Assembly: GCF_000003815.2 (NCBI RefSeq)
Contig: NC_049980.1
Coordinates: forward strand, 27,889,273 to 27,953,272
Direction of reading: 5' to 3'
Source: Branchiostoma floridae
Lineage: Eukaryota; Chordata; Leptocardii; Amphioxiformes; Branchiostomatidae
Length of the DNA: 64,000 nucleotides
Below the pieces are notes generated by a model. It was not told the DNA's origin. It saw nothing but the letters and a program-made list of their open reading frames with translations, and did no database searches. Shown one piece after another: positions 14,242 through 51,100 of this stretch; the stretch's first letter is position 1, and each line of letters starts with the position of its first letter. Both the position numbers and the translations under genes were made by a program.

Positions 14242-14743
14242 TTAACTTGGGATGATCCGTGGGCGGCCAATGAGCATCGTACACGGTATGGCCACGCAGA
14301 TGGCGATGATGTACAGGATCAGGTTCAACCTGTCGAGGACGTTAGCCAACAAAGCGTACTCTGCGACTTCGTCATCGTCATCAGCACAACTTGCCTGTGT
14401 CATGGCGTCGGACAATTGTCTAACACTAACCTTCAACTCATCTACACTTCCCTTTAACCCCATGAGGGCAGTGCCGACCTCATTTCTTGTGTCCAGAGAA
14501 GGGTTGTCCTCCCCGGATGATGCGCCATCGATGGGCATGTCTAATGAATGATTGTCATGTCCCTCGATGTAATTTACTTTGTTACTTCTGCAGGGTCTTT
14601 TTGGCTCTTCACTTTTCAGCTTCTTGGTCAAGTCTCCCATCAATAGGGCCCTGAAGTAATGAGAAGGTAGAATTACGTTAAGAAGCATATTAAGAAAAAT
14701 CATTGTACGGGTTTGTAAATCATAATGTTTATTTGAACGGTTT

Positions 14744-14791
<48 letters not shown>

Positions 14792-14796
14792 TTTTT

Positions 14797-14833
<37 letters not shown>

Positions 14834-15974
14834 TTGAACGTTTGCCATACCTTGCTATGTTCTTCAGGAAGAGCGTCCGCACCCACTTTGGGACGGGTCC
14901 CTTCTTGTCGTGGATGATGATGATGAAAAGAGTTGACAGCATGAACAGCGCCATCAGAGCCATGCAGACAATGATCAGCATAGCTGGAATTGTAGGACAT
15001 GTGATTTGTAATGAGCACCAAAGTAGCCAAAAGACACTGTGATGAAGCTTATACGTTAACAATTGATATAACTAATGGTCCATACATGCTACATATTTGT
15101 TTGTAATGGAGATAATCTAAGCGATGACAATACTTGTGTATACTACGTCTTTAACAAGTCACAAAGATCGTGCAATCTCAAAAGAAATTGGGATTGTCGC
15201 ATGTGTGATCTGCAGGCCGATTTGTACTTCTCATGAACAAACAAAGGTTTGAATGTGTCATGTATAATTTGGTTTACGAAAAATGCTACACTGACTCCTC
15301 GTTGACGCTTGGTCCTCTCACTGTCTGCTTGAAAGCTCTGTGACTTGAGGTGGTATCTCACTGCACTTCCGTCACGCTGGCGTCACCGCGGGGTTCGTTC
15401 ACTGCAGTACTGTAGTCTATTGTGTTACTTTTTAAATTGTTTTATGATGTTGCGTAATATATAAAAGCATGACTTAGAAGACAACAAAATACAAAACGTA
15501 AGAAAACCCGTTCTTTATCAATGAAATCCGTTGAGCATCTTCGAACCCCGCAGTGACGCAAGCGTGACGCAAGAGCAGGGAGATACCACCTTTACGACGC
15601 GTGTAATTGCGCTGTTGCTGAGTGTCAATACTCACCGATGAATGGCAGCGCACTTGACACAGGTAGGAATCCTGTGACGACCACTAACGACACCACCATG
15701 GACAGAAGAATGGTGACTCCGAACCCTATCCTGTCGCCTTTGTCGATGGGCATGATGAAGGTGATAATCATGAGGATGATGAGGATGAGGCAGGGAGAGA
15801 TGGTTGTGGAGTAGTGGTAGGTGGGGTCTCGTTTGAGTGTCATAGTCAGACAGGCCGTGTTGTTTATGGTTGAAAGTGTTGCTTTTCCTCGCCACTCTCC
15901 TTTGATAATGTCTTTGGCGTTATTTTGGCAGGTCAGGAAGTCCCTGTCTTTGTGTGTTGTTGAATTGGAACATT
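14242..15974 (-). CDS. Gene A membrane and pore exons (M1-M4)
   Basis: Exon 15974-15636 carries the end of the binding domain, then RDPTYHY at the M1 entry, M1 with its Pro ([18 protein letters not shown]), and M2 ([15 protein letters not shown]). Asp-Arg at positions -1' and 0' and Leu at 9' match cation channels of the nicotinic type; there is no Pro-Ala insertion as in glycine or GABA channels. Exon 14983-14851 encodes M3 and the PKWVRTLFL start of the inner loop. Exon 14650-14242 encodes an acidic loop of about 110 residues, M4 ([14 protein letters not shown]) and the tail RPRIIPS. Confidence 0.85.
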
Positions 15975-18900
15975 CTTAAAAAGAAAAGAAAACGTTAAAA
16001 GCATTCAAGGACCTGTATCAAAAGTCAAGCACCAGTAGTCTGTATGAAAAGTGAACAATAAACATTTCATGTTGGTATCTTCACCTGGACGTTAGTTCCT
16101 TTCAAGATCACTTGCAGTTGAGCCAAAGTTAAAAATGTGGTTTGACCCATTTCATTGCCAGAGATATTATTTCCAAATGATTTTACAATCTCGATGGACG
16201 ACTCAAGTTCTGAATTGAAACGTGTGTTTTCTTGGGTTGGTAGGACATAAACAAGATACAAAACGGTGTATTCCATATCGCCCTCGGGCCCAGCCCTCCC
16301 GCGGCTGTTGGCAGTTCTACCCGAGGTCGAGCTGGCACCTCGGGTGTTATTTCTATATAAATGTAAGATGGGTAGAAGTTTCCAGACTGACATACCTATT
16401 GTGTAATCTTCCCCGGCTTTCCAGCACACCGCACACGTCATGTTGTCATGCGGGAAGAGGAAGGGGTCCAATGTACACGTCGTGGTTGTCAGTGATGTGA
16501 TCGGCCAGGTCACTTCACCGGTACTCTCCAATTTTACCTCAGTCTTTGGGAACCCCCCGCTATAATCTGTATCCGCGCTGGTAGAGAAAATATGGTTTGA
16601 CTTTGAAAAGGATTTTATCCAAGAAAATTACTTATTACATTGGTTTGGTTTGACACGCATCAAATGATGCTGTAAAGACTAACGATATTTACTTAGTGTT
16701 TCTATTTTGCAGTTTTAGTTGACCGTCCATGATGAGTCTAAATATTTACATAACTTTCAGCAAAACATCCACTAAATTGATGCAATCAATGAAGTGCAGC
16801 AAATAGATGAACAAAAGTTTTGTGCGATCTGATACTTCGACCTGTGCTAATGAAAGTAGTATAGGGAAAGAAAAAACTTTGTATCACTGTCAAGTATTGG
16901 CACCTATCGTACCTCTGCTGATTTAGACCATACGAGGTTTTGAGTTGCGAATAAAGTCAGAAATAGAAAAAGGGTGATATAAGAAGTTACCCGTGTGTGA
17001 ACCTGTAAATACTGTACGTTGAATATGGTAGAAGACGAATCACATTTTATTTCAAACTGCCCCTTTTATGATCAAGAGAGAAAAGAGCTCTTAAAGAAGC
17101 TACCAAATTCTATCCNNNNNNNNNNNNNNNNNNNNNNNNNNNNNNNNNNNNNNNNNNNNNNNNNNNNNNNNNNNNNNNNNNNNNNNNNNNNNNNNNNNNN
17201 NNNNNNNNNNNNNNNACAGACAAAAAGATAACTACCCCTCTTTTAACGTCGCAAAACGCACACATTACAGAAAAAGTGGGATCTTTCGTCTTCCACTGTC
17301 TCAGAAAAAGAAGTCAAACCCGAACATCTTTAAGTTAGACTAGAATAGTCGCTTACTATACTGTTAACCATTATTTTCTGTCATTTTTTTGTCACTTACA
17401 ATTAGCCCTCGGACAAGAATTTGCAATAAACTTATTTATTTATTTATTTAAAATTCAAACATTTACTTTCTTTGCAGTGTCAACGTTGGTTTCCAGACCT
17501 GGTCATCAACGATGAACATCTGTCCTAAATCTCCATATTCTTTGGGTACCCACTGCAACCGTTCGTCTTTCCATGTCTGTAACATAAAAAAGCAAAAGGC
17601 TTCATTCTGTATTCAGTAGGGATTTATAATTGTAACTATAACATACAGCTACATTAGAATAACAGCTCTATTGGGAAAAAAACTCTTTATATTTGTAACC
17701 CCTCACGGAAGCAGGCCTAGTTTTCGCTCCATACATTTACAATCATAACAAGTGACCGTAGGTGACATACTCTGTGACGTAATTATACCTTATGTCGATT
17801 ATGTCAGTTCTGTCTGATATCTGAAATTATTACATTGATTATAACAACTGCTACCGCGAACAAAACAACGCGCATCATTGCGCAACTGAGAGCAGACGAC
17901 ATGCCAAACTACATACGAATGCGGCAAACGGAACACAGAGATACAGATGCGAACACTCATCACAGCCACCGATCACAATTCTCTGTCGACGGAGGTTACC
18001 CTCCTGTCACAAAGTAATAAGTTGGACATTGTTGGAAAGGAAATTACACAAACTTTCCTCCAACGATATATAATACATAAGCATTGATGCGAAAACAACG
18101 GGAATATGATCAGCCAGAGTTGATATTCCAAACACTTTGCGTCAAGTCCGTACTAGACACAGTATGCAACTGTGCCTTCTCTATACATGTAGTAGGACGT
18201 TAACTAGAGGGCAAAGGAATCAGTGCTTGCACCATCTGGAACTGTTGCACAACATTTCCTAATTGGCTTAATTTTTGTTACCTTAAGTTTCCATGCCGAG
18301 AGTCGAACTTCACCGTTCTTCAAAAATGTTTCATCGTAATGACAAATAATCGACATGTTGTACCTGAGGGAGTGAAAGGAACAATGAACTTACGTATTCC
18401 GCTTTGAAAGATGTTACTATCTGTTCCGCCTTTTCGTCCTGAAAGGAATATACAAAAAGACCGTTGTTACCATTGCCAACTTGAAGGGCGGATGTCTTAC
18501 ACATGGGCAACTGGTAGTAAATTATTATAATTAAAGTCATGTCTAATGTTAACATAAGTATAGGTAACTGTTGTAAAGACACACGATGCCCCGGTATAGA
18601 TACTGCTGTCGAATCTACCAACACGTGCTCTTAATTGCATTCAAAGGGCATAACAACATTTCAAAATTATGCCATTTGGTATTTCTCACTTACCAAGTTG
18701 ATGATGTTGACAACATATGCCTTTATTCCCAGACTAGCTGTTGGAGCCACCGCCATGGCGTAGACATTCGTGCTCAGGAGGTCATTTTGAAGCTTGAAAG
18801 TTTGGTCGACTGCAACACAAATATTACTCCAGATTTGGTATTAGCCTTCACTTGCAGTCTAGATTACTATAAGCTTATATTACGTGTAATTGCACAGATA

Positions 18901-21900
18901 TAACAGACCCCATTTCCTTGATATCAATACGGCTGTCACCATGGTTACTGGAGGTGTGTCAGACACCCTGTGGTATTGGATTACATAATGACTAGCAACT
19001 GACAGTTAGGAGAGAGCAGAGGGGCTGGTCATCCATCACAATGAATGGATTGGAGTAAGAATAAACAGACCAGTAGCTTGTTAGAATAGACAATGTGAAG
19101 GTAAACAGTATCCGTTTGTTGCAAATGTTACCTTTCTAGTAATTCTTACCTTCACAGTATGGTCTCTTTGTTGCCCAGTAGGCTTCTCCTGTTGTGTCGT
19201 TAATAACACATTGTGCTTTATTAGGCGGCGAGTCCTTTTTGAACTTGAATCCTTTATCACATGTGTAGGTGATAGTTTCACCTGGCCAGTAGAACTTCAG
19301 AATGGGTCTTCTCTTTCCAAACGTGGGGTGGCCGGGATCCTTGCACCCTTTATCTGCAGGAACGAGAAAGAAGGGAAAATCCACTGTAGATATATATATA
19401 TACAAGTCTTTCCTGCCGTCATCCTTGAGACCTTTCTCTGACCATGTATGAATTTGATTTGACGACAACGACCCTAATTTGCTATTATTTGTATTGACGG
19501 GTATACGCGTCAAAGTTAATTTTCTCATTTAATGTTACTTCTTGTTTTATTTCATTTGATATATATGTATATGTCTCTCTGGGGTTACCCCCCAAGGCAC
19601 ATTGAAAAGCGCCTAGAAAAGGCGAAACGCTAACCCTGGTAAAATAAAGAAAACAAACAAACTTACCGTTGCAAGGAATGACGTCACAGTACTCAAGTCC
19701 CATTTCGGAGCTAGTGAAGCACCATGGCCTGCTAAAGCTGTATGCGTCAGGGTTGCGGCATTTGTTGTCCACAAGGTTTGCCCAGGGATACGGTGCTATG
19801 AAGGTTGGGTCATCGTCCCATCGGTCACAGCCGACCCCAGACACGGGACCTCTGGCCTCGTCTCCTCTGTAATTGGCACCATTCCCATCGAAGCACTCCT
19901 CTGCGACGGACAAAAAGATCAAACAAATAAAATAAAATGTCAACATTGTTTATTTTCTCAGTTATTGCAACAGCTAGCATAGATGCATAGGGCTAAATCA
20001 AAAAGTAACCCCATAGCATTTTTGAGGCCATATGGGCAGTTTAGGGTAGGTATTGGAAGGCGGAGCCTAACCCTCTCCTTTCATCGCCTTTTACCTCCTC
20101 AACCAAAGCAAACCGAAACAATAGAGGGAGGAAAGTAGGGAGGTACAAGATCGGTAGCATGTCAAAATTTAACAGCATGACCTCTGGGTCTGGAACAAAC
20201 ACTTTGCAGTTACGCCAAACGACTCCACCCACTGGTATAGCTAATGCAAATAGACAAACTACCTCCCTCCGGAGTTGTTGAAGTCTTGACGTTGTTGCAG
20301 TTGGCATGAGGAAAGATCTCGCAGCTGGGGAAGGCTGACCAAGAGTCCAGTTTTTCACACGAGAACTTCACCTCTTCACACCAGGACCGACAGGGCAGCT
20401 GCTGCCTGAGATTCGGGCTGAAACAAAATAAACAGTCAACGGTTGATGATTTAGGAAACAGCTAGATGGCTGCTATACAAAGATGATGAGATTTGTCAAT
20501 AACGTAAAGCAGCCGGATGCTGGACTCCCAAAACTATCAGATAAAATATGAGAAACAATAAGGAAGCAGTTTATGACAAACGCAAGTGTGTCACCCACAA
20601 CTAAACCAACAGTCACAAGTACTATTTATAGCGGAGCTCGGCAGATTTCCTTTAGACTTAGATATATCTGTGCGTGTTATTTGTTACTGGCTACGCTTAT
20701 TACAATTGGATTCTCAAAGACATTTGTTACAAGCTGATGCCCTTTTATATCAACATAGATTTATTTCTAATAGTCGTAGAAGAACCTTGTTACAACGAGT
20801 GAAAGAAATTTTAGATGGTAGTGGCCACTCCTACCTTTTCTATTCATGTAACTCACTTAGTGATATCAGATCTATATGTACAATGATAAGATCTAGAATC
20901 TCTTATATGTTTATCCAAACATCTCGTCATAACTTGAGTATAGATACTGGTAAGCTAAGATTTTATAAGACCTGTAAAACAGCACATACCATGGAAAAAT
21001 ACTTAGAATTAGATAATTTCAATTTACGCTCGGCAATCAGCAAAATTAGAATTAGTGCCCACCCTCTCGAAATTGAGAGAGGGCGGTACAAGAGGCTATT
21101 CGTGTGTGAAAGAACGTGCAAACAATGCGCGTCAAACGTGATGGAAGACGAAACACATTTTATGTCAAACTGCTCTTTCTATAACCAAGAAAGAAAAGAG
21201 CTGTTCAAAGAGGCCATCAAATTTCATCCAAGCTTTCTCACATTCACTGACAAAAAGAAAGCAGTTCACCTTTTAACATCACCAAACCCAAACATAATAA
21301 AAAAAGTGGGATCTTTCGTCTTCCACTGTCTTCGAAAAAGGAGTCGAACCCAATAACCCAGGATCTAGAGTTAGCTTTTACTAGTTTTAGACTAGAGTAG
21401 ACACTTGTGATATTGTATTTTACACTGTTTGAATATTTTATGTTACCTGCAATTAGCCCACGGGCAAGAATTTGCAATAAACTTGATATATGATAAGTAC
21501 AGATAAAGACTTATGTCACACCACGGCGACCTATATTCCAAATAACATTACAATCCATTCAGAGGTTTTAAGTTATGCTGACCACAGATATCCGGAAACA
21601 CAAACACACAGACACACACACAGATACACCCACAAAAAATGCAATACCTTCCTTTAAGGCCCCCTCTCACTTGACGTGCGGCACGCTTGCGGCATTGCTG
21701 CGTTCGTTCACTGCGGTACTGTTTTGTTATTTTCTCCGATTTGTTATAATTCAGATATTGCGCAATACGTAAAAGTGTGACATAGAAGACCACAAAATAC
21801 ACAACAAGTAAGAAAATTCGTTCTTTATCTCTGAAATTCGTTGAGCATCTTCCGAACGCAGCAATGCCGCAAGCGTGCCGCACGTCAAGTGAGAGGGGGC

Positions 21901-24900
21901 CTTTACATGGAGGCAATGATCCAACTTTACCTGGACTCGCAGCGGGGCACGATGGTAGCACACACCAGGTCTCTAACACGGGGGTGACACTTGGAATCTG
22001 CGAGGGTGCTGAGGTTGCTGAACGTTGTTGAGTTTTCAACCTGTGCTACCGTGGTGTGGGTGAAGTCCAGCGGGTTGGGGAGTGTCATATTTTGGTACCC
22101 AATGCCCATGCACATCGTCAAAGACGATGGAATATTTTGGCATGCTGAATAAAAGTAAAATATAATGCACGATGTACCGTTACCATAGACCAAGCCATGT
22201 AACGTTACCGTAGACCAAGTCCAATAACAGTTCTGAAGATAACGCAGTTCTGACGATTTCTGAAGATATGATTTTGAAAACGGTCAGACGTTTCAGGTAG
22301 CATTACCTTCTGTCATTGACTCGGGGTCTGAGTCACTTTTTGGTTTAGTTTGGTTTTAATTAGAATCTCCGTTAGTGACTGATACGTCACCATCCCGGAG
22401 TCCGGAAGAATCCTGGAGTTCTGAAGTTTTCAAACCCATATCCAACTGATTGTCAGTAACTGCTATTCGTTAGTTGAAGATTTATTTCATCGATTGAAAG
22501 TTCCATGTTTAAATGCTTCAATTATGATACTCAAATAAGAATCTGTACCCACCACATCTGCTTGCCTCCTCATCACTGCCGTCCCTGCAGTCATCGTTTC
22601 CGTCGCACCGTTTCCAGGCGTCTATACAGGTCATACCGTCAGCACACCGGTACTGGCCAAACGCACACTCAACAAACACTGGAGATCAAAATACATTATC
22701 ATATGACTTCATATACGGCGACCTTGTATGTGGCAATGCCTTGATACAAGTTATATAACACGACTAGCCGTGGTTTTAGTTTCGGCTAGTGGTGTTATGT
22801 TGACAAATATTTTGATCATTTACAACAAAATGTACAACAAAATTTACAGCAACATTTACCGATCAGCATCAATGTTATGGATACCAAATATAACAAAAAT
22901 GTGTCGCGACGTTGTGAAAAAATGAAACACAAGAGAATCAATATTCTATATTTCAAGATGTTGAGATATGTTACACGGAACTACTTAATATGTACTTAAC
23001 GTTCTATGATAGGATTCAAACGTAATGCAGTGCATTTACACCTTTACCTTCAGCTGTATAGCTGGCCTGAAATCCCTTGCGGTTTATGGAGTGGTCGGTT
23101 TCTAGTAGAACAGTCATGGAGCTCCCAGTTGACGTCACAGGATCGGGGATTCTACTCCCAGTCAGCTGAACTGAGGGGCACAAAACAGTTCGTGACATGT
23201 GTAAGTTATTTTATAGATAACATGACATTGGAGTTTGATTTTAAAAATCCTTTGAGCGTGTCTATAGCTGCCAACATTTCGTTACCTTTTTCAAGACATA
23301 ATTTGTGACTGCAATTTGATATGACCGACCTCTTGTTTCGCTGCGTATAGTTTACATCATATTACTTACCTCTTTTGTATGTTCGCTATAAGTATTGTAT
23401 GACAAGCAAGAACAACCATTCTATATACCAATTGTACCCACAAAGGCTAGCACACCTCATGTAACTACATGTATTTGCGGATTGAGCAGGTTACAGCAAC
23501 GTTTTAAAACAGCCGCAAATCGTGCTCAGACAGTTACAAAAGAATTGTTGGTTTCTCACCTATCTCAAATGCGAAATCAGTTGTGCTTCCATCATACACA
23601 TACACCCTGTCATAGCCGTCCTCAAGGTCAAACTCCGTGAAGGTCAGTCTGATGGCCTTGGGCGGGGTGACGGAGATCTCGTACCGGCAGTAGTGATTTT
23701 CAGGGTAGTTGTTTGGGTAGTTCGGGCTGGTGAAGGTCCCGATGTCAGCAGTTAGGCTCTCGCAAACTGGCATAAGTTATTATTATTAATACGGAAAATA
23801 TATAAATAGTTTATTTAACATTGATACCACAAACAACACATCAATCGTGCAGTCGTAGGACTGAATTGCAGTGAACATTTACATGGATACAATTACCATA
23901 TGCACTACTACCCAGTATAAAGGGTTGAAAATTGGGAACTTATTGCATTCTATTATTTACAATAAAACGAATGCCTAATATACATGTAGTAAATGATGAT
24001 TACCATATGCAGTCAAACCTGTATTAGCGGCCACCTTTGTATAGCAGCCACCTGTCCATAGAAGACACTTTTTGTCGGTCCCTTGGATTCGTAATGATTA
24101 AGAAATAGGCACGTTCCGTGCTCATTCAGGCACGAAAGAAATGGGGCACAGCCTGACTGTCCAGGTCTGTGCCTGGAAGCGCTGTCAATCAGCATCAATG
24201 TTATGGATACCAAATATAGCCAAATTGTGTCGCGACGTTGTGAAAAAAATGAAACACAAGAGAATCAATATTCCATATTTCAAGATGTTGAGATATGTTA
24301 CACGGAATGTACTTAACGTTATATAATAGGATTAAAACGTAATGCAGTGCAATTGCACCTTTATCTTCAGCTGTATAGTTGGCCTGAAATCCCTTGCGGT
24401 TTATGGAGTGGTCGGATACTAGTTTAACAGTCATGGAGCTCCCAGTTGACGTCACAGGATCGGGGATTCTACTCCCAGTCAGCTGAGCTGAGGGGCACAA
24501 AACAGTTCGTGACATGTGTAAGTTATTTTATAGATAACATGACATTGGAGTTTGATTTTAAAAATCCTTTGAGCGTGTCTATAGCTGCCAACATTTCGTT
24601 ACCTTTTTCAAGACATGATTTGTGGCTGCAATTTGACATGACCGACCTCTTGTTTTGCTGCTTGTAGTTTACATCATATTACTTACCTCTTTTGTATGTT
24701 CACTATAAGTATTGTATGACAAGCAAGAACAACCATTCTATGTACCAATTGTACCCACAAAGGCTAGCACACCTCGTGTAACTACATGTATTTGCGGATT
24801 GAGCAAGTTACAGCAACGTTTTAAAACAGCCGCAAATCGTGATCAGACAGTTACAAAAGAATTTTTGGTTTCTCACCTGCGGGATAAGTTGTGCTTCCAT

Positions 24901-27900
24901 CATACACATACACCCAGTCATGACCGTCCTCAAGGTCAAGCTCTGTGAATGTCAGTCTGATGACCTTGGGTGGGGTGACGGAGATCTCGTACCGGCAGGT
25001 CAGATCGTTAGGGTAGTTGTTTGGGTAGTTCGGGCTGGTGAAGGTCCCGGTGTCAGTCGTTAGGCTCTCGCAAACTGACATAAGACATTAAGGAAAGAAA
25101 TAAGATACGAAAAATATATGAATAGTTTATTTAACATTGATATCACAAACAACACCTCAGTCGTGCAGTCGTAGGACTGAATTGCAGTGAACATTTACAT
25201 GGATACAATTACCATATGCACTTCTACCCAGTATAAAGGGTTGAAAATTGAGAACTTATTGCATTCTATTATTTACAATAAGGTTAATGTCTAATATACA
25301 TGAAGTTAATGATGATTACCATATAACTAACATATATGGTACATACTGCTAACTGTTGTGTCCAAAACCGTGCCCGTCCCGTTCTGTGCTCATTCAGGCA
25401 CGGAATGGGGCACAGCCTGACTGGCCAGGTCTGTGCCCGGAAGCGCTGTCAATCAGTATGATTGACGGGACAGTGATAAATAATTATTTACGCCTATGTT
25501 TCCCAATAAGGCTTGATTTTGCGTGATTTTGCGAGAGTTTGTTTCGAGAGTTGGAAAAGTTTGGCAGTTTAGCGGACCTTTTGTGTGCCAGGTATCCAGG
25601 AGAACTGATTAAGATAAGATATATAGTCTTTTTAGTTTTGGTTTGCTGAAACCCCTGTCGTATTGTATAGTGCCCTACATTTCTACTTAATGGCTAAGTT
25701 TATTTATGAGGCAAGAAAAGGACAACAAATTTTAATCTTAAAATAACAGTTGTCTTTTTTGCAAGATAATACACGGAGGTTTTTGCACACTGATGAATAC
25801 AATATGTATGCAGTTAGTGGAAAATTTATCAAATTTGGATGCAGAGTAAACACTATTTTGTCCTTTTTGATTCCCACTATATGATTTGTATCCATAAAAT
25901 TGTTCATGAAAGACAGAATTTAGCGCGTCAACAGTGCATCCCATTTAGATAATTACGAAATACAATATGCATACCATAAAACATAAAAACGTCAAGCTAC
26001 ACCTTGATCAAGTCCCCAAGCAAGAACGTACTTTTGCCCCAGGCACGGTTCTAGATACACGTGGACTATCCAGGACCGTGCCTGTATGGTATTTCCGTGT
26101 CAAAATATCGTATTGTAAATACGCCCACGATATACGGACGTATTTTCCGTTTTAGGTATACGATACCGTCTCGGAACAAAAATATCGCTATACTCCATTA
26201 TACGCAGCAAATTTCACTTGTAAGGCGTACTTACAACGCGTAACGCATTGCCAATCAGGTATATGATATCGCATCTCAGACGATTATTATACGGTATCGA
26301 TCTGGCATGTACATCCAATGTCTTAATCTTTTCTGATGACAAAGCGATCTTTTGTATCTTCCAGTAATGTACCTGTAGTATCTGAGTCTCTGTAGTCGAC
26401 ACAGGCCGAACAGTCACAGTGGGCCGCAGTGTTGCCGCACCATTTGTGCGCGGAGCAGCATGGGTGAATCCCGTCAGGGTTGCATTCAGCAGGGTTACCG
26501 TCTTCAGCAAGGTAGCCGTGCCCGCATCGCTCGTCATCACGCCACTTCTTAGGACCTGGCAGGAAAAAAAATGAGGTAAGCAAGGTTTGGTCGTATATGG
26601 ACAAGCAAAAGACAACAATGGCTAGATAGTGCTATAATTGAAGCATCGTAGATGCATTTACGTTTTGTTTCCTTTATTTAAATTACATTTACGTTTTTAC
26701 GCCTTTTTAAGGTAGTACTACGTTTTTAGATACGATATTTTGACACGGAAATGATGCCCCAGTGCCTGGGCATGGTTCTGGATAAAGCTGTCTTTTATCC
26801 AGAACCGTGCTTGGTGATTATATAATATAGTCTTGGATATTATATCATCGTTGTACTAAAACATCCGTCTGTCTGTGCAACATTAACTTTAAGTCTGTAA
26901 ATGATTCACGACAAGCTTGAAATGTATTTTAATGAGCGAGAATTACGCTGATCCTTCCTCATCCCAGGGACCCAAATAACAAAGATGGCGGGGCTGCAGG
27001 AAAAAAAAACACGTTGGACAGATTCCTCACCTAAAACACTAAGCTCCACCCCAAAGCACAGTATGGGGCAAGGTCCCCTGTGTGTCCAGAACTGTGCGCG
27101 ATTGGGCACACCTCGGGACAGTCCCTGCATGTCCAAAAACGTGATTTTGCCCCAGGCACTGTTCTGGACACGCGGGGACTGTCCCGAACCGTGCCCAAAG
27201 CACGGTTCGGGGCGCAACAGCTAACTCACGAATTAGTGCATACAATTTAAGATGATAAGAGACGTGTAAACACGCTCAGTCCCATTACAGGACCATTGCA
27301 ACAAGTGCCATTTGTAGCTGAAAAGGAGAAGAATACTGATAGATGTGTATTATGCAAAATAAAGACCTAATTTGCATAATAAATGAGAAAATGCTATAAT
27401 GTCAATGTAGTAAATGACGGGAACTTCTTATAGCATTTGGAAGTTATGTACAGATGAATCAGAAAATGCGATAAAAGCAGTCTTCTTATCATAGATTGCA
27501 CATGTCAGTTTGGTGGAGATGATCAAGTCATATAATTTATGCAAATGAGAACCTTATTTGCATAATTAATGACAAACACAATACAGCAGTTGTAAAAGAT
27601 GGAATCATGTGGCGAAGATATGGGGTCGTGGGACTAGTTTTAAGTGAGGTATAATCTAGTCTGGGATGGGAGGATACAGCTGATGACAGATTCGTCACCT
27701 AAAAACACTCAGCTCCGCCCCAAAGCACAGTATGGGATAAGGTCCCCTGTGTGTCCAGATCTGTGCGCGATCGGGCACGGTTCGGGACAGCCCCTGCGTG
27801 TCCCAAAACGTGCTTTTGCCCTAGGCACGGTTCTGGACACACGGGAACTATCCGGAACCGTGCCTAGGTTCGGGACAAACCACGGTTCGGGGCGCAACTG

Positions 27901-28670
27901 CTAACTTACGAATTAGTGCATACAATTTAAGATGAGGAGATATCCAACAATTCAGGTATTTACAATATATGTGGATTCTAATATCATAAAGGATAATTGT
28001 AAATATTTCGCCAAAACACTAGCAGTTATTCAAGAAACTGGATATTATTTCAAAAACGACGTTTCAGGTAGCATCCTTGAATGCTATTTGGCGTGTCGTA
28101 TTACCTGGATTTCATACCTTCATCGGCGTACCAAAGAAATACAGTGTATGATGTTTGCACATGTTCGATGAAATACATGATATTCGCAAGGCCTGACAGT
28201 CCTGATGTGCTAAGTGTAATTCAACATCAAATCTAAGTTAATCATGAATACATTTTGTGATGAAAATAATAAGAAAAACAATAATTATGACTACCTGAAT
28301 GTATTTTGTCAAGCTACTCCCGTACTTAAGGTCAAGTCTTTTGGCCTTGATATCGTAGTAAAAGTGATCAAATATAGGTAGCGGGATGAAAGGAAAAGTA
28401 CCGTAAAATACATTTTCTTTTCTTTTCTTTATTGAAGTAGTGACAAAACAATACACTATACATTTTAAAGTCTGTAATAAAGATGAAATCAATACTTGAT
28501 CACTTCTTGCCTTCCCAGACCATATATCACATAATAGCGCGCGATGTATGAAATGACAGAGATGACAACATAGAGAGAATGGAGCAAAGTTACTTACGCG
28601 TTTGGGAGGAGACGCCATTATAGTACAAGCACCATGCCACCACGCCAACCCACGATGGTAGTGTGTGCAT
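14242..28670 (-). CDS. Gene A: Cys-loop ligand-gated ion channel with a CUB-CUB-LDLa-Frizzled-kringle-Sushi ectodomain
   Basis: Exons, 5' to 3' on the minus strand: 28670-28598, 26555-26373, 25074-24877, 24487-24365, 23766-23560, 23170-23048, 22678-22553, 22144-21931, 20417-20263, 19900-19667, 19353-19150, 18809-18694, 18438-18394, 17576-17467, 16577-16396, 15974-15636, 14983-14851, 14650-14242. They sum to 3174 nt: one continuous frame of 1057 residues. Phases agree at every junction. All borders are GT-AG except the donor after 24365, which reads AT. Order: signal peptide (1-24), Cys-rich module (25-85), two CUB (86-302), LDLa (303-344), Frizzled CRD (345-467), kringle (468-545), Sushi (546-613), pentameric-channel ligand-binding domain (614-about 815), four membrane segments, short extracellular tail. 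It should sit in the plasma membrane as a subunit of a pentamer. The ligand is unknown; the modules suggest binding to matrix, Wnt-like or glycan partners. It is far longer than the usual 450-550 residues for the channel family. Confidence 0.88.
14741..14833. repeat. (TTTC)n microsatellite in gene A intron
   Basis: A long TTTC tract, absent from the matching intron of gene B. It keeps a Lys-Glu-Arg reading open on the minus strand, which falsely joins the last two exons of gene A into one frame. Confidence 0.95.
15348..15591. mobile_element. MITE with AGG...CCT ends, Harbinger-like (TTA target)
   Basis: A 244-bp element with inverted ends of about 50 bp (AGGTGGTATCTC...). Its interior resembles the MITE at 21657-21902. 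The matching intron in gene B reads straight through GTGACTTACGACGCG, which gives the empty site. Flanks TTG and TTA suggest a 3-bp duplication with one change. Confidence 0.7.
16396..18809 (-). CDS. Gene A ligand-binding domain of Cys-loop receptor (4 exons)
   Basis: Exons 18809-18694, 18438-18394, 17576-17467 and 16577-16396. The first gives an early strand ending in YVVNIINL. The next two join to give KAEYTWKDERLQWVPKEYG, the family's W-x-D-x-x-L-x-W motif, followed by VWKPTLTL. The fourth holds the signature loop: Cys738 and Cys752 with exactly 13 residues between and DPFLFPHD inside (the family has FPFD or close). An extra Cys-x-x-Cys follows. No vicinal Cys pair of the nicotinic alpha type is seen, so acetylcholine as ligand is not implied. 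Confidence 0.87.
17000..17455 (+). mobile_element. LINE 3' fragment in gene A intron
   Basis: It matches the C-terminal coding end of the LINE at 20623-21494 (VEDESHF, QERKELLKK, VGSFVFHCLR-like words) and ends with GCAATAAACTTATTTATTTATTT, an ATTT tail. A 100-N gap lies inside. It is short, damaged and inactive. Confidence 0.75.
17116..17215. other. Assembly gap (100 N)
   Basis: Exactly 100 N inside a LINE fragment in an intron of gene A. No coding exon of gene A is affected. Confidence 0.99.
17580..18390. other. Gene A intron, no extra gene seen
   Basis: Non-coding. Parts near 18300-18380 are almost the same in the matching intron of gene B, as expected from the shared duplication. Confidence 0.5.
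19150..19353 (-). CDS. Gene A Sushi/CCP module
   Basis: One exon with 1-1 phase encodes a complete complement control module: [21 protein letters not shown], a third Cys, then YW and PYC. Sushi modules bind proteins and glycans. It stands directly before the channel's binding domain, as a membrane-proximal stalk. Confidence 0.88.
19667..19900 (-). CDS. Gene A kringle module
   Basis: One exon, phase 1-1: CFDGNGANYRG, CDRWDDD, KCRNPD, RPWCF, YCDVIPC. The six-Cys kringle pattern is complete. Lysine-binding residues cannot be judged by eye. Confidence 0.9.
20263..22144 (-). CDS. Gene A Frizzled-type cysteine-rich domain (2 exons)
   Basis: Exon 22144-21931 encodes [29 protein letters not shown] and CATIVPRC. 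Exon 20417-20263 encodes [23 protein letters not shown] and ANCNN. The spacing fits the ten-Cys Frizzled CRD, which in other receptors binds Wnt or lipid. The phase-2 split inside the domain is shared with gene B. A LINE and a MITE lie in the intron. Confidence 0.85.
20623..21494 (+). mobile_element. 5'-truncated LINE, C-terminal coding end
   Basis: The frame from 20625 or earlier to 21356 encodes the C-terminal part of a LINE reverse transcriptase protein: ELGRFPLDLDISVR, RISAHPLEIERGRYK, then a Cys-rich tail CKQCAS...DETHFMSNC. It is flanked by AAGTAC at 20617-20622 and 21495-21500. Gene B has the uninterrupted site (AAGTACTTAAGTAC) at about 52055-52070, so it inserted after the duplication. 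The clade is not certain. The sequence ends GCAATAAACTTGATATATGAT. Confidence 0.8.
21657..21902. mobile_element. MITE with 46-bp inverted ends, TTA target, Harbinger-like
   Basis: Ends AGGCCCCCTCTCACTTGACG and its mirror are nearly perfect over about 46 bp. TTA stands on both sides (21654-21656 and 21903-21905). The matching gene B intron lacks it. Same family as 15348-15591. Confidence 0.8.
22553..22678 (-). CDS. Gene A LDL receptor class A module
   Basis: One exon, phase 1-1: CAFGQYRCADGMTCIDAWK, then [15 protein letters not shown]. All six cysteines and the acidic calcium-binding cluster are present. Confidence 0.92.
23048..23766 (-). CDS. Gene A CUB module 2 (nearer the membrane)
   Basis: Exons 23766-23560 and 23170-23048, phase 1 at both ends. 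SPNYPNNYP and YDRVYVYDG are typical CUB; the C-half ends GFQASYTAE. Only the first Cys pair is seen; the second pair of most CUB modules is absent. Confidence 0.85.
24365..25074 (-). CDS. Gene A CUB module 1 (distal), altered splice donor
   Basis: Exons 25074-24877 and 24487-24365 copy CUB module 2. The donor after the C-half exon reads ATAAAG where the sister copy reads GTAAAG. Six bases further, GTGCAA follows AAAG. Splicing there would add two codons and keep phase 1, so the frame can survive without the old donor. The alternatives are skipping of the exon, intron retention, or a sequence error. Confidence 0.75.
26040..26250. repeat. Dispersed GGCACGGTTCTGGA repeat
   Basis: A CCCCAGGCACGGTTCTGGA-type repeat in a gene A intron. 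It also occurs at 26.75, 27.1, 27.8, 61.18, 63.5 and 63.9 kb. Part of the similarity comes from the A/B duplication; the rest is a dispersed family. Confidence 0.6.
26373..26555 (-). CDS. Gene A N-terminal Cys-rich module
   Basis: One exon, phase 1-1, directly after the signal peptide. It holds RCGHGYLAEDG, PCCSAHKWCGNT and CDCSACVDYRD. Vicinal CCS followed by WCGNT resembles hevein-like chitin-binding folds, but I cannot name the family with certainty. In gene B a kringle exon takes this place. Confidence 0.7.
26725..27910. repeat. GC-rich palindromic repeat cluster in gene A intron 1
   Basis: Two blocks (about 26960-27240 and 27640-27930) share AGCTCCGCCCCAAAGCACAG and inverted words GGCACGGTTC / GAACCGTGCC, with a 27245-27640 block between them. 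The same set is present at 62820-64000 upstream of gene B. Open frames on both strands here are products of this repeat. Confidence 0.65.
28598..28670 (-). CDS. Gene A first exon: start codon and signal peptide
   Basis: The ATG at 28670 opens MHTLPSWVGVVAWCLYYNG, a short hydrophobic signal sequence with a likely cut after VSS. Its donor, GTAAGT, leaves phase 1, and the next exon starts with GT to make Arg, which continues RPKKWRDD. A later ATG in another frame gives no signal peptide, so this start is preferred. Confidence 0.75.
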
Positions 28671-37073: not shown

Positions 37074-37255
37074 AGTAGTATAGTAGGGACAGGATCACTA
37101 TTATTATTCAGGCGCAAGCAGGCGCAGGTCAAAGGTCATCGCCTGCCGATATTATCTATTCAGGCGCAGGTCAGAGGTCAAATATGATTTATTCAGGCGG
37201 CGCAGGTCAGGGGTCAGATATCATATATTCAGGCGGAGCAAGGTAACTACGACAA
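37074..37255. repeat. Left terminal subrepeats of the palindrome
   Basis: About four copies of ATTCAGGCGCAGGTCAGAGG-like units follow the left end. The mirror image lies at about 43434-43615. Confidence 0.75.
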
Positions 37256-43777: not shown

Positions 43778-45173
43778 TTAGTCAGGAATGATCCGTGGGC
43801 GACCAATGAGCAGAGTACACGGTATGGCCACACAGATGGCGATGATGTACAGGATCAGGCTCAACCTGTCGAGGACGTTAGCCAACAAAGCGTACTCTGC
43901 GACTTCGCCATCGTCATCACCACGGCTCGCCTGTGTCAGGGCGTCGGACAATTGCCTAACACTGACCTTCAACTCATCCAGTCTCCCAATGATGGCAGTG
44001 CCGACCTCATTTCTTGTGTCCAGAGAAGGTTTGTCATCTTCGGATGATGCGCCATCGATGTGCATGTTGAATAAGGGGATGTCGCATCCTTCGGTGTCGT
44101 CTACTTTGTCACTTGTGCTGGGTCTTGTTGGCTCTTCACTTTTCAGCTTCTTGGTCAAGTCTCCCATTAATAAGGCCCTGAAGCGATGAGAAGATAGAAT
44201 CACGTTAAGAAGCATATTACGAAAAAGGATACTTTAGTATCTGTAAACCATAAAGGTTATTTGACCAATTTTCATGGATTTGAACGTTTGCCATACCTTG
44301 CTATGTTCTTCAGGAAGAGCGTCCGCGCCCATTTTGGGACAGGTCCCTTCTTGTCGTGTATGATGATGATGAAAAGGGTCGTCAGCATGAACAGTGCCAT
44401 CAGAGCCATGCACACAATGATCAGCATAGCTGGAAGAATAGGACATGACACTTGTAATAAGCACTAAAGTAGCCAAAAGACGCAATGACGCTTATACGTT
44501 GACAAGTGATATCGCTTATGGTACATGCGTATACTACGTACATACGTGTTACATATTTGTCTGTAATGGAAATATTCTAAGCGATGACAATAGGTGTACA
44601 CTACGTCTTTAACAAGTCACAAAGATCGCGCGATCTCAAAAGACATTGGAATTGTCATATATGTAATCTGCAGGCCGATTTAAGCTTCTCATGAATAAAC
44701 AAAGGTTCAAATGTGTCTTACGAAAAATGCTACACTATAGTAGATCCTTGAAGATGTTTAATTCTCTCATCTAAGCTCTGTGACTTACGACGCGTGTGAT
44801 TGCGCTGTTACTGAGTATCGATAAGTCAACTCACCGATGAATGGCAGCGCACTTGACACAGGTAGGAATCCTGTGACGACCACCAGCGACACCACCATGG
44901 ACAGAAGAATGGTGACGCCGAAGCCAATCCTGTCGCCTTTGTCGATGGGCATGATGAAGGTGATGATCATGAGGACGATGAGGATGAGGCAGGGAGAGAT
45001 GGTTGTGGAGTAGTGGTAGGTGGGGTCTCGTTTCAGAGTCATAGTCAGACAGGCCGTGTGGTCGATGGCTGAAAGGGTCGTTTTTCCTCGCCACTCTCCG
45101 GTGACAATGTCCGCCTCGTTATTTTGGCAGGTCAGGAAGTTCGTGTCTCTGCGTGTTGTTGAATTGGAACATT
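43778..45173 (-). CDS. Gene B membrane and pore exons (M1-M4)
   Basis: Exons 45173-44835, 44429-44297 and 44177-43778. M1, M2, M3 and M4 match gene A closely; M2 again reads [13 protein letters not shown]. The inner loop is three residues shorter. The protein ends RPRIIPD. Confidence 0.85.
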
Positions 45174-48100
45174 CTTGAAAAGAAAAAAAAGGACCTGCAT
45201 TCAAGGACCTGTATCAAAAGGCAAGCACCAGTAGTCTGTATGGAAAGTCAACAATAAACAGTAACATGTATGTAGTTGGTATGTTCACCTTGACGTTGGT
45301 TTCTTTCAAGGTCACTTTTCATTGCCAGAGATAGTGTTTCGAAATTATTTCACAATGTCGATGGAGGACTCAAGTTCTGAATTGAAACGTGTGTTTTCCT
45401 AGGTGGGTGGGACATAAATAAGATGTGTATTCCATATCGCCCTCGGTCACAGCGCTCCCGTGGCTGTTGTTTGCCATCCTACCCGGGGTCGGGCTGGCAT
45501 CTCGGGTGTTGTTTCTATGTGAATGTAAGATGTGCAGAAGTGTTCAGACTTACATACCTATTGTGTTAACTTCTCCGACTTGCCAGCACACCTTACACGT
45601 CATGTTGTCGTGCGGGAAGAGGAAGGGGTCCAATGTACACGTCGTGGTTGTTAGTGATGTGATCGGCCAGGTCACGTCACCGGTACTATCCAGTCTTACC
45701 TCAGTCTTTGGGAACCCCCCGCTGTAATCCGTGTCCGCGCTGGTAGAAAAAATAAGATTTGACTTTGAAAATGACACTATTCAGGAATCTTACTTACTTC
45801 ACTAGTACATTGTTGTGGCATATCTATCCACCAAATGACTCTACAATGACTGCCGATATCTATTTAGTGTTTCTATTTTGCAACTTGTAATTGGCTGTCC
45901 ATGATGAGTCTACATATGTACATAACCTTCAGTAAAAACATGCATACGTGCAGCAAACATATGGACAACAGTTTTGTGAGATGACTGATTCCCAACCGAT
46001 TGCTGTCTCACGAATTGAAATGGACATAATAAGAGATTTTCACAAAGAGTGGTAATTTTTGTTTTCAATAAAAATAATTTTTCTATGCTGTTACGTCACC
46101 AAGAGATCAAATTTTGATCATAGATAGCGCCAATACGGCATTTATCGTTCTTCTTTGTTCTTGGCTGGATGTCCGTCGTGTAAAATTCGGGAGTGTTTCG
46201 CGCACGTTCTGGTAATTTTTCTTTTGCTTGGGAATGACTTAGCAGAGATTTTTCCATGGTCTGAGGCTGAATCGTGGGTAGGTTGGAAACTGGCTGTGAG
46301 TAAGTTAGCAGTGGTTATGGTGTGGTTAAGATTTAAATTTGACTGCTGACTTATAACCAAACACCAGCCAACCGAGCCAAACACCAGCAGATCACTGGCC
46401 AACCCATTCCAGACCAGCCGTTCAGAGCAGAATGCTTTGAACATTTCAAAACATTCAGATGGCGCAGACGAACACCAGCCGAACGCTAGCCGACTACAAC
46501 CGACTTAGCTCCGGAATCACTCCTAACCATAGTCAGGAGAGAGTCGTAATCCAAATTCGGCTATGTTTAACCTAGGCATAAGAAAGAAATATTGAAAAAG
46601 AAAAACTTTTGCATCACTGTGAAGTAATGGCACCCATCGTACTTCTGATGAGTTAGACCATAGGATATTTTGAGTAGCGAATGAAGACAAAATAAAAGAA
46701 ATTTACTTTCTCTGCAGTGTCAACGTTGGTTTCCAGACCTGGTCATCAAGGACAAGGGGAACAAAAGACCGACCATATTCTTCGGGATCCCACTGCAACC
46801 GGTTGTCTCTCCATGTCTGTAACATACAAAAACAACAGGCCCCATACTATATTCCAGATGGACTTATAACTATAACTATAATATGCATGCATATGTAAAA
46901 TAACTTCTTTCGAGCTATTATTGGAAATAGATTTTTCATATTTGTGATCCATCACGTGAGCAGGCCATGTGCTCGTTCTATGCCTTTACAATCGTAATAA
47001 GTTGTATATCATTTGAAAGGATATACATGTATTATACATTAACATTGAAGCAGAAACAATGGAAATATGATCAAAGTTGATATTCATATGATTGACATTT
47101 TGGGCCGATTACATAGGGATAGATAAAGTATGCAATTGTGCTTTCTCTATACATGTGGTAGTACCGGTGGAAACCTTATCTATAAGGCAAAAGCAACAGT
47201 GGTTGCACCATCTGGAACTGTTGCATAACATTTCCTAATTAGCTTAATAAGTTTTTGTTTTTATACCGTTAGTCTTCACCGTTCTTCAGAATTTTTTCAT
47301 TGTAATGACAAATAACTGATATATTGTACCTCAGAGAATGAAAGGAACAATGAACTTACGTATTCAGCCTTAAACGATGTTACTATTTGTTCCGATTTTT
47401 CATCCTGAAAGAAATATACATAAAAAGACCGTTATTACGTATAACATTTGCCACCTTGAAGGACGGAAGTCTTACACATCGGCAACTGGTAGTAATACAC
47501 ATTGATTAAAGTCATTTCTAATGTTAACATAAGTGTGGATGAAAAATACAGGTGCCTTGTTGTAAAGATAGGCAATGTCCCGACTTAGATACTGCTGTCG
47601 AATCTACCAACACATGCTTTGCCAGTTGCATTCCAGTATCCATGGCAAAACAACATTTGGAACTTCTGCCATTTGGTATTTCCCCCTTACCAGGTTGATG
47701 ATGTTGACAACATATGCCTTTATTTTCAGTCTAGTTGTTGGAGCCAACTCCTTGACGTAGACATCCGCGCTCAGGAGTTCCTTTTGGAACTTGAAATTGT
47801 AGTCGACTGCAACACAAATATTACTCACAAAATTGTCATTAGCCTGTACTTGCATTCTAGATTACTATAAGCTTATATTACGGGTAACTGCACTCAGAGA
47901 TAACAGACTCTATTTCCTTGATATCAATACGTCTGTCACCATGGTTACTGGAGGTGTGTCAGATACCTTGTGGTGTTCGATTACACCATGTAACAACTGA
48001 CAATTAGGAGAGAGTGGGGGGGGGGGGGCTGGTCGTTATACACAATGAATGTGTTGGTGAATTAATAAACAGAGCAGTGGTTTGTTAGGCTAGACAATGT

Positions 48101-51100
48101 AAAGGTAAACAGTATCCATTTCCTTGCAAATATTACCTTTCTAGTAATTCTTACCTTCGCAGTCTGGTTGCCGTGTGTCCCAGTCAGCATCTCCTGTTGT
48201 GTTATTAATAACACATTTTGCTCTATTAGGCGAGGAGTCTTCTCTGAACTTGAATCCTGTATCACATGTGTAGGTGATAGTTTCACCTGGCCAGTAGAAC
48301 TTCAGAATGGGTTTTCTCTTTCCAAACTGGGGGTTGCCGGGATCCTTGCACCCTTTAACTGCAGGGACGAGAAAGAAGGGAAATTCCACTGTAAAGATAT
48401 ATGTACAAGTCTTTCCTGCCGTCATCCATGAGACCTTTTAACCTGTCATATCTTTCTCTGACTACCATGTATGAATTTGACTTGACGACAACGACCCTAA
48501 GTTGCTATGATTTGTATTGACGGGTATAGGCGTCAAAGTTAATTTTCTCATTTAATGTTACTTCTTATTTTATTTTATTTGATATGTATGTAAATGTATA
48601 TCTGGGGTTACCCCCCAAGGCACATTGAAAAGCGCCTAGAAAAGGCGATATGTTAACCCTGGTAAAAGAAATAAAACAAACAAACAAACAAACTTACCGT
48701 TGCAAGGAATGACGTCACAGTAGTCGAATCCACTATTGTTAGTGAAGCACCATGGCCTGGTGAAACCGAACGGGTTACGACATTTGTTGTCCACAAGGTT
48801 TGCCCAGGGGTACCGTTCTATATAGTAATTGTCCCATTGGTCACAGTCCACCCCAGCCCTGGGACCTCTGGCCTCGTCTCCTCTGTAATTGGCACCAATG
48901 CCATCGAAGCACTCCTCTACGACGGACAAAAGGTACAAGCAAAACGTCGACCTTGTCAATTTTGTCAGCTGTTTGCAGATTGCAACATTTGACATAGAGT
49001 GTATCGGGGGAAAAGGTAAAAGTAACCCCACAGCAAATTTAACCCTATTCAGACCGGGCTTTTTTGGTCATCCCTGGACTTGGTGGCTTTTGAGGCCCTC
49101 CACTTCTTTCTTTCTTTCTTTCTTTATTCGCACATAACGTGGCTTAAAAACAAATGTAAATACAGAAATGAAGTACATGCAGGTGGTGGGCAGAAGCCTA
49201 TTTGGCTTTTCTTGGGCCTCCCCCAGAACTAAGTCACAGAAATAATGATTATATATAATTAAAGGAACGAAAAATGCACATAACATAAGTTGAAATCAAT
49301 ATGTGAAGCATACTTATGGAATAGAAGTTATATTACAAATGATCAAATGAAATAATAAATACAAAGCAAAATTTGACAAATCATATACAAGTAAGTCGGA
49401 ATTTGACAAAAAAATGTAGGATCTCTAAGTCTTTGGAAACAATAGCTATCAACTACCAAGAACAACCAAAAACGAATGTGAAAAACAAGGAAATCAAACA
49501 AATCAGGTAAAAGTTATGCTTGGGTGTGTGATGCAATCAATCTTAATAAGCTTTTTGAACCTGGGTAATGATAAGCAGCATTGTTGGACTTGACTTAAAT
49601 TATTCCAGATGGTGGGGCCTCTAAACTTTATTGTGTGTTGTTTTAGACAAGATTTTTCTTTAACTGGTCTTAAAAGATTCTGCTGTCTTGTGAAGTGGTG
49701 GTGAAAATCTGAGTTGGAATTGAAATTAAAAAGACATCTAAATTGTTGTGGTAGTAAAGAACTGTTGTGGACAATTTTATGTACAAATATGGCAACTTGA
49801 AATTTGTTGATATCAAATACCGTCATAACGTTTAAATCATGAAAGAGAGATGCTGTGTGTGCTGTAAAAGTGGCATTGCCCGCAATTCGTACAAAGCGCT
49901 TTTGGAAGGAGGTACAGCGGTTTGATAGATGTAGGGTACGTGCTAGCCCATATAATATTGCAGTAAGTTAGGTAAGGATAAATCAAACTGTTATGAGTAT
50001 ATTTCGTGATAACAAGGTTTTGACTTTTCTTATAATGCCTATGTTTTTCGAAATTTTTTTGCAAACCTTATTAATTTGGATCTTCCATGAAAGTTTCTCG
50101 TCAACTATTATACCTAAGAAGCGGGTATGGCTTACTTCTAAGTCCTATAACTCTAACACGACGTGCCGTAGAGCCACCGAATTTTCAGGACAAGATGTCG
50201 ACGTACTATCTGACAAGTATTTGACGTTTGACGTTACGCTGACGTAAGATGACGTAATTACGACGTCATCAATTTGATTATGTTGGCCGGACCCATGAAA
50301 AAAGGGTATTCTCAGAAAACTTCAAGTTATGCTACAAAAATGTAACAACAAGTGCAGATGATAGAATAATAATGTTTATTATGACTTGCGTTGCCAATAG
50401 CAACATCAAAGACGTCAAGATGACGTCATAAAATGACGCCATGCACATCTACGATACGAGTTGGGCTCCGCCATATTATATCCACAACCTTGAATTTTTA
50501 AAAATCCTTTTTTTGCAACAATTAATCACAAAGGGCAATGAAAATAGACTACATTCATTCATTTAGATGGTTTTTGATGAAAAAATACCAGGTAGTTACA
50601 AATGTTAAGGGATAATTAGCTTGTTATTCTTGATCTGGCCATACGGTCCGCCATCTTGGATTTTGGGCTGATGACGTCATCAAATTAGCATAATTTATGC
50701 ATATATAATTATGAAAGATATGCTAAATAATATAAGATTTTATTTATGTAACAAAATAGCAGTAATATAGCAAATAAATGTGAAAAATACATTGGTTTTT
50801 GGCAAAACTGCCTGCGGACAAAAGGTTGCCATGGCAACACGAAAAAATGGAAAATAGGAGTTGGCGCGGGCCGCAAAAGCCCCCCCCCCCCCCCACAACT
50901 GAATAGGGTTAAGGCCATAAGGGTAGTTGATTATTATCCACTGATTGTTATCCACTTTGTCCAGGGCACAGTATTGGAAGGCAAAACCTAACCCTCTCCT
51001 TCTGTCGCCTTTTACGTCCCCATTCGAAGCAGTCAGGTACCTATTTCTATAACAATGGAGTGGGGAAAGTCGTGGAAAATGTCTTTCTCAAGGGCAGAAG

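Follow-up and report, generated by a model that had tools for sequence, protein, structure and literature searches.

A lancelet Cys-loop channel gene predicted to carry a modular outer arm

Can a channel subunit of the Cys-loop family carry, in an animal, a long arm of extracellular modules in front of its ligand-binding domain, or are two neighbouring genes being read as one? The question is raised by a stretch of 64,000 nucleotides from the lancelet Branchiostoma floridae (contig NC_049980.1, positions 27,889,273 to 27,953,272 of the forward strand; hereafter the window), in which the minus strand of positions 14242-28670 holds a run of exons, here called gene 1, that leads from a signal-peptide-like stretch through CUB, LDLa, Frizzled, kringle and Sushi modules into such a channel. 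An initial annotation had proposed one gene of this architecture. That 14242-28670 is one gene, with the arm joined to the channel, is well supported at the DNA level by the open frame, the splice phases, a second copy, the selection acting between the copies and scans of the intron at the joint, and one gene is the likelier reading when set against two. Evidence from outside the window came from solved structures, profile libraries and published papers.

Gene model, channel half and arm

Eighteen minus-strand exons, from 28670-28598 to 14650-14242, were rebuilt from their splice sites and yield an open frame of 1059 residues. All 17 introns are GT-AG, and the phases agree at each of the 17 junctions, reading 1,1,1,1,1,1,1,2,1,1,1,0,0,2,1,1,2 from 5' to 3'. 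The order of the encoded parts is signal peptide, hevein-type domain, CUB, CUB, LDLa, Frizzled, kringle, Sushi, Cys-loop binding domain and channel. The 18 phase-matched exons in one frame that the initial annotation had described were thus recovered, while its length of 1057 residues was not, presumably owing to other splice-site choices. The exons, together with the intron on which the fusion depends, are as follows (the basis of each assignment in brackets).

28598..28670 (-), exon 1: ATG and short signal-peptide-like stretch (24 residues), phase-1 donor
26373..26555 (-), exon 2: hevein-type chitin-binding domain, a 1-1 module (solved-structure match and cysteine count)
24877..25074 (-), exon 3: CUB 1, first half (Pfam)
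24359..24487 (-), exon 4: CUB 1, second half (Pfam)
23560..23766 (-), exon 5: CUB 2, first half (Pfam and solved-structure match)
23048..23170 (-), exon 6: CUB 2, second half (Pfam and solved-structure match)
22553..22678 (-), exon 7: LDL-receptor class A (LDLa) module (Pfam)
21931..22144 (-), exon 8: Frizzled cysteine-rich domain, first part (Pfam and solved-structure match)
20263..20417 (-), exon 9: Frizzled cysteine-rich domain, second part (Pfam and solved-structure match)
19667..19900 (-), exon 10: kringle (Pfam with the exon alone, and solved-structure match)
19150..19353 (-), exon 11: Sushi/CCP (Pfam with the exon alone)
18810..19149 (-), intron of 340 bases from Sushi to binding domain: the joint
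18694..18809 (-), exon 12: ligand-binding domain, part 1 (Pfam)
18394..18438 (-), exon 13: ligand-binding domain, part 2, 15 residues (Pfam)
17467..17576 (-), exon 14: ligand-binding domain, part 3 (Pfam)
16396..16577 (-), exon 15: ligand-binding domain, part 4, with the Cys-loop C-x13-C (Pfam)
15636..15974 (-), exon 16: end of the binding domain, M1, M2 pore and start of M3 (Pfam and 5-HT3A alignment)
14851..14983 (-), exon 17: M3 and start of the intracellular loop (Pfam)
14242..14650 (-), exon 18: intracellular loop, M4, stop (Pfam)

The predicted protein is shown at the DNA level to be a subunit of a Cys-loop (pentameric ligand-gated) channel. Both channel profiles score above their cut-offs, Neur_chan_memb with 4.9e-24 (86.3 bits vs 28.1, profile positions 1-227 of 233) and Neur_chan_LBD with 6.6e-24 (85.0 bits, cut-off 26), and the best solved-structure match of the channel half is 5-HT3A, over about 400 residues (E 2.5e-38), with nicotinic subunits next. 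Two cysteines of the binding domain lie 13 residues apart (C-x13-C), in a stretch that is identical between the two copies. The hydropathy scan marks M1, M3 and M4 and does not separate M2, which was placed by alignment to 5-HT3A; M2 aligns without gaps with the 5-HT3A pore PPDSGERVSFKITLLLG, GDRIGFG standing against GERVSFK. The acidic residue at position -1' and the lack of a Pro insertion in this alignment are features that we take to mark the cation type.

The modules of the outer arm that the initial annotation had listed were borne out by Pfam scans, both full-length and of single exons, and by matches to solved structures, with the exon that it had called Cys-rich turning out to be hevein-type. 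In the full-length scan, CUB (two stretches, E 1.9e-50), Fz (1.3e-14, 55.1 bits vs 32.1) and LDLa (6.3e-7, and 2.9e-9 with the exon alone) are above cut-off; Sushi is below it (16.2 bits, E 0.014) and kringle is absent from the listing. Scanned as single exons, both are above cut-off, Sushi with 6.8e-5 (23.6 bits vs 20.7) and kringle exon 10 with 7.2e-14 (52.3 bits vs 34.3). The nearest solved structures are cubilin for the second CUB, sizzled, Frizzled-5 and Frizzled-8 for the Frizzled domain of exons 8-9, in which ten cysteines can be read from the sequence, and plasminogen and HGF for the kringle. The two CUBs represent a tandem duplication of 1.1 kb (22862-24008 and 24188-25324, 91.6% identity), an origin which, like the hevein identity of exon 2 and the second copy of the gene, goes beyond the initial annotation. 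A non-exhaustive scan of five regions for further cysteine-rich 1-1 exons, in which the kringle exon at 61656-61892 (see below) went unlisted, brought up no convincing missed one. Between the signal peptide and the binding domain there is no membrane-like stretch (highest 19-residue mean 0.72), and thus the arm should be extracellular.

The best solved relative of exon 2 is the N-terminal domain of amphioxus PGRP3 (PDB 4z8i, E 2e-15), and its match to Pfam Chitin_bind_1 is below cut-off (E 0.0011, 19.6 bits against 27.8). With the hevein-type domain of PGRP3 it has 29 of 54 residues and all eight cysteines in common. The PGRP3 domain itself binds chitin, its putative chitin-binding residues are Ser51, Trp53, Trp55 and His62, and a Trp53/Trp55 double mutant was reported not to bind chitin beads (PMC4610682). 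At these positions exon 2 has Ser, His, Trp and His, so that three of the four contacts are kept. PGRP3 (4z8i, 4zxm) differs in that its domain is fused to a peptidoglycan amidase domain and has Trp53 in place of the His (PMC4610682).

The second copy and the joint

A sister gene (gene 2) was found on the same strand, at 58540-43778, from the listing of open frames and tblastn within the window. Its 14 exons, separated by GT-AG introns, encode 857 residues from CUB to stop, in the same module order as in gene 1 and with a single CUB. The repetition of the order from CUB to stop, with the same phase at all 13 junctions common to the two genes, makes it unlikely that the module order of gene 1 is due to chance. 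The exons of gene 2 (tblastn and splice model) and a further kringle exon 5' of them are as follows.

61656..61892 (-): kringle exon of 1-1 phase, 5' of gene 2 (Pfam 2.6e-28; its acceptor looks weak)
58334..58540 (-): gene 2 CUB, first half
53350..53472 (-): gene 2 CUB, second half
52912..53037 (-): gene 2 LDLa
52279..52492 (-): gene 2 Frizzled, part 1
51176..51330 (-): gene 2 Frizzled, part 2
48698..48916 (-): gene 2 kringle
48155..48358 (-): gene 2 Sushi
47691..47806 (-): gene 2 binding domain, part 1
47360..47404 (-): gene 2 binding domain, part 2
46707..46816 (-): gene 2 binding domain, part 3
45558..45739 (-): gene 2 binding domain, part 4, with the Cys-loop
44835..45173 (-): gene 2 end of the binding domain, M1-M3
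44297..44429 (-): gene 2 M3 and loop
43778..44177 (-): gene 2 loop, M4, stop

No hevein exon of gene 2 was detected by tblastn, and, judging from strand, phase and position, the kringle of 61656-61892 is probably the N-terminal module that replaces it. The 5' stretches of the two genes contain DNA matches at 26220/61403, 26632-26678/61510-61556 and 26724/63446, and others that are out of order; as this stretch is repeat-bearing, an exchange of hevein and kringle modules at this place is suggested by the matches without being proved. The 5' end of gene 2, which was not found in the window, may lie beyond position 64000.

A mis-joining of unrelated exons during the assembly of a repeat-rich and highly polymorphic genome is a very improbable source of this order. 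In its favour, the window contains four gaps of 100 N, starting at 2197, 13856, 17116 and 32837, of which one (17116-17215) lies inside gene 1, and a near-perfect palindrome stands between gene 1 and gene 2. However, 28670-17467, which comprises the arm together with its joint to the channel, is free of gaps, as the only gap inside gene 1 sits in a channel-half intron, and the order is repeated, at 82% protein identity, in a copy about 30 kb away. That the two copies are alleles or haplotypes was ruled out, since their divergence is well above the single-nucleotide polymorphism rate of 4.39% given for the Chinese lancelet (PMC4284660).

It should be noted that the copies are recent duplicates, so that their shared order does not count as independent evidence, and only joint preservation does. 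Protein identity is 82% both for the channel and for the LDLa-to-Sushi block, with a synonymous divergence (dS) of 0.23 and 0.16, respectively; taken block by block, dS ranges over 0.17-0.27 in the channel and 0.08-0.28 in the arm, a spread that makes conversion between the copies possible. Ratios of nonsynonymous to synonymous divergence (dN/dS) were obtained with our own Nei-Gojobori script from whole codons inside exons, with codons split by introns dropped and with exons 1 and 2 of gene 1, which have no partner in gene 2, outside the comparison; Fisher tests set change counts against site counts, using rounded counts. The dN/dS is 0.42 (0.31-0.60) for the channel (436 codons, p 1.7e-6) and 0.61 (0.39-0.99) for the LDLa-to-Sushi block (301 codons, p 0.033). 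In 2573 aligned coding bases there is no stop between the copies, and none of the four coding gaps breaks the frame, while 17 of the 22 intron gaps are not a multiple of three (counted in five of the 11 introns compared, those that could be aligned over their length). Thus, both halves of the protein, as blocks, are maintained as protein.

The modules might nevertheless be decoration left by exon shuffling in lancelets, with little function of their own, which would be compatible with a single gene and which we regard as rather doubtful. The gain of domain pairs in lancelets has been reported to be 10- to 100-fold faster than the metazoan norm (PMC4284660), although this fast gain is disputed (PMC4967905, PMC6071037). 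The change ratio of the CUBs is looser than that of the channel (Fisher p 0.006 and 0.049, two non-independent comparisons), and the N-terminal module is unlike between the copies. On the other side, the LDLa-to-Sushi block is constrained and its change ratio is not distinguishable from that of the channel (p 0.22), none of the modules compared contains a frame-breaking change, and the chitin-contact residues of exon 2 are largely kept.

Several points weigh against an intact gene with a functional arm. The architecture is known here from the genomic DNA of one window alone. Exon 1 is the weakest exon, having hydrophobicity as its sole basis and an in-frame stop closely upstream, and the Neur_chan_LBD match spans only profile positions 6-142 of 216. 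The dN/dS values of the CUBs, 1.65 (0.82-4.91) and 1.11 (0.59-2.51), are indistinguishable from neutral, and for each of LDLa (1.18), Fz, kringle and Sushi by itself the interval spans 1. Chitin binding may be weak, because His occupies the position of PGRP3 Trp53 in exon 2. Sixteen codons upstream of the binding-domain exon of gene 2 lies an in-frame ATG, unspliced through the intron, and the unspliced leader has a hydrophobic 9-mer mean of 2.21, which is over the bar of 1.6 used in the scans below. Furthermore, lancelet gene predictions can fuse neighbours, expressed sequence tags having been used against such chimeras by Banyai and Patthy (PMC4967905), and agreement between relatives can be a shared error and is no proof (PMC4967905, PMC6071037).

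Because such fusions of neighbours are known, the joint intron was tested directly. With lengths of 340 bases (gene 1) and 348 bases (gene 2), the two copies of the intron align from end to end at 87% identity in ungapped columns; the exit from Sushi and the entry into the binding domain are both phase 1, in both copies. In neither copy does the intron contain an exon of signal-peptide character running from an ATG to a phase-1 donor (hydrophobicity bar 1.6), or any of the motifs AATAAA, ATTAAA, TATAAA and TATATA. The scan for first exons covered seven regions, namely the joint and kringle-Sushi introns of both genes, the first intron of gene 1, the region upstream of the gene 2 CUB and the region upstream of gene 1. 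Six candidates exceeded 1.6, two in each of the last three regions, and none was found in the four introns near the joint, the remaining arm introns lying outside the scan. A separate signal peptide before the channel exons, which the initial annotation had named as the mark of two genes, was therefore not encountered in spliced form in the joint introns by these hydrophobicity criteria.

These results bear on the possibility that two genes, one for a secreted protein of several modules that stops after Sushi and one for an ordinary Cys-loop channel that begins with the binding-domain exon, have been wrongly joined, which we consider improbable. In addition to the precedent of neighbour fusion, a documented error type in lancelet predictions (PMC4967905), the stop shortly after the Sushi donor in both copies, the ATG and hydrophobic leader of gene 2 and the restriction of the first-exon scan to some introns speak for it. 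Against it stand the end-to-end alignment of the joint introns, their lack of a signal-peptide-type exon and of the four motifs, and the phase 1 on both sides of the joint in both copies. Upstream of the gene 1 binding-domain exon, a stop is reached without any in-frame ATG, and as the ATG of gene 2 is not conserved there, the support that it lends to two genes is weaker. The leader of gene 2 raised the probability of two genes slightly, still within the improbable range, and lowered that of the single gene, our favoured explanation, to a similarly small extent.

Reading on past the Sushi donor runs in both copies into a stop after a few codons (CEGKNY; 19150-18809 and 48155-47806), and an isoform consisting of the secreted arm only is conceivable through retention of the intron after Sushi. 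Production of both forms, the long channel and a secreted arm from the retained intron, would be compatible with a single gene, and we hold it to be unlikely: the stop just inside the intron is present in both copies, but chance alone should yield a stop this near in an intron, and the joint intron is devoid of a poly(A) signal.

A channel with an outer arm

The explanation that we favour, with moderate confidence, is a single gene for a cation channel that would be tethered or modulated by its modular outer arm. By Patthy's rule, exon shuffling proceeds into a phase-1 intron behind the signal peptide. Each inserted module of gene 1 is a 1-1 unit (the Frizzled domain being a 1-2 plus a 2-1 exon) and the donor of the signal-peptide exon is in phase 1, so that the arm fits the classic exon-shuffling picture; the modules would have been inserted between signal peptide and binding domain, probably by this route, and the N-terminal modules may still be swapped in the same way. 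The subunits would assemble into a 5-HT3/nicotinic-type cation channel, with five module arms standing above the binding domains of the pentamer. The arms might tether the channel to glycan- or protein-rich surfaces, for example, chitinous or mucous linings, matrix or microbes, and might modulate gating, as the N-terminal domain of the bacterial channel DeCLIC does. The trigger could be a small ligand of a non-classical kind that acts at the interface between subunits, or else binding and strain in the arm.

The alignment to 5-HT3A has some bearing on the nature of the ligand. At the positions that we take to form the aromatic box, the loop B Trp is replaced by Gly, the aromatics of loops A and C are absent and the loop D Trp aligns with Phe, which leaves an aromatic in that loop; loop C is short in this alignment, and four extra cysteines can be read in the binding domain. 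With the aromatic box mostly gone, a response to acetylcholine or serotonin in the usual manner is unlikely, and the subunit was therefore not filed as a nicotinic or 5-HT3 receptor. The initial annotation had inferred that large extracellular partners gate or localise the channel, an idea to which the missing transmitter-site aromatics and the three retained chitin contacts lend some weight. Going further, the protein might be an ionotropic recognition receptor, in which the arm would directly sense components of microbes, food or matrix, be they glycans, lipids or proteins, and open a fast cation channel. The classic transmitter site would have been abandoned, and the outermost modules would be exchanged and varied from one tandem copy to the other, in the manner of immune or contact-chemosensory receptors; this we put forward as a tentative and rather unlikely extension.

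In 5-HT3A and nicotinic subunits, the binding domain follows directly after the signal peptide. Gene 1 resembles them in the binding domain, the Cys-loop C-x13-C, the four-segment channel domain and the cation-type M2, and differs from them in some 590 residues in seven modules that precede the binding domain, as well as in the aromatics missing from loops A and C, the loop B Gly, the short loop C and the four extra cysteines. Extra N-terminal domains have been reported in several prokaryotic pentameric channels; the same article states that none has been observed in a eukaryotic homologue and calls the working of these peripheral domains poorly understood (PMC9897478). With DeCLIC and other prokaryotic channels, the gene model shares the channel family and the presence of an extra outer domain before the binding domain. 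DeCLIC is bacterial and has two jelly-roll lobes instead of animal matrix modules, so that the comparison concerns working alone (PMC9897478).

The initial annotation knew of no described receptor with this architecture, which agrees with the negative statement for eukaryotes (PMC9897478) but must be qualified by one entry, 269420_PRF0, listed by Banyai and Patthy in 2016 as one seemingly Branchiostoma-unique architecture with Neur_chan_memb, with the caution that entries of this sort may be prediction errors (PMC4967905). It is alike in genus and in Neur_chan_memb, is not described as a receptor in the section consulted, and may belong to the family of gene 1 and gene 2. A survey of nicotinic receptors with amphioxus among its subjects makes no mention of such a form in the sections consulted (PMC6354393), and no description of a Cys-loop channel with such a CUB/kringle/Sushi arm was found in the accessible parts of the open-access literature. 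Adhesion G-protein-coupled receptors of amphioxus carry kringle, CUB, LDLa and somatomedin B (PMC2246102); these are the same kinds of module on receptors that are not ion channels, and thus lancelets have added such modules to another receptor class.

Pentameric channels rank with the most thoroughly studied receptors. If the single-gene model holds, a chordate subfamily with a modular arm would offer an animal system for how accessory outer domains place or gate channels, and the phase-1 intron after the signal peptide would have given exon shuffling access to a channel family in which it is not known to occur. The locus also bears on the dispute whether the domain novelties of lancelets are real or prediction errors, and the selection across the sister genes supports the former in this case.

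Surroundings of the two genes

The palindrome between the genes is a near-perfect inverted repeat, with arms at 37074-40194 and 40351-43615 (99.7-100%) and a spacer of 156 bases. Each arm has the same open frames, one of which matches the ribonucleotide reductase small subunit (Pfam 3.4e-92, 37396-38358, one arm scanned), and the frame 39707-40249 has a C2H2-like match below cut-off. The repeat may have arisen by a very recent duplication in inverted orientation or by a join made in the assembly; it is clear of both genes but makes the distance and linkage between gene 1 and gene 2 less certain. The frames 20577-21356 (+) and 49503-49967 (-), within introns of gene 1 and gene 2, respectively, appear by eye to be retroelement-type fragments; 49503-49967, the one scanned, has no Pfam match.

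Scans of the window with Rfam (gathering threshold) and ARAGORN gave no match. On the plus strand of 1-10100 lie exons from at least one family-10 glycosyl hydrolase gene, among them 482-757 (Pfam 1.2e-5, above cut-off), with similar exons seen by eye at about 8292-9402. The exon 2847-3197 has a weak CBM_4_9-like match below cut-off (0.0073), and 1563-1829 and 9842-10102 have no match in Pfam. Finally, 11501-12410 consists of a tandem pair of about 460 bases each, with 93.7% identity.

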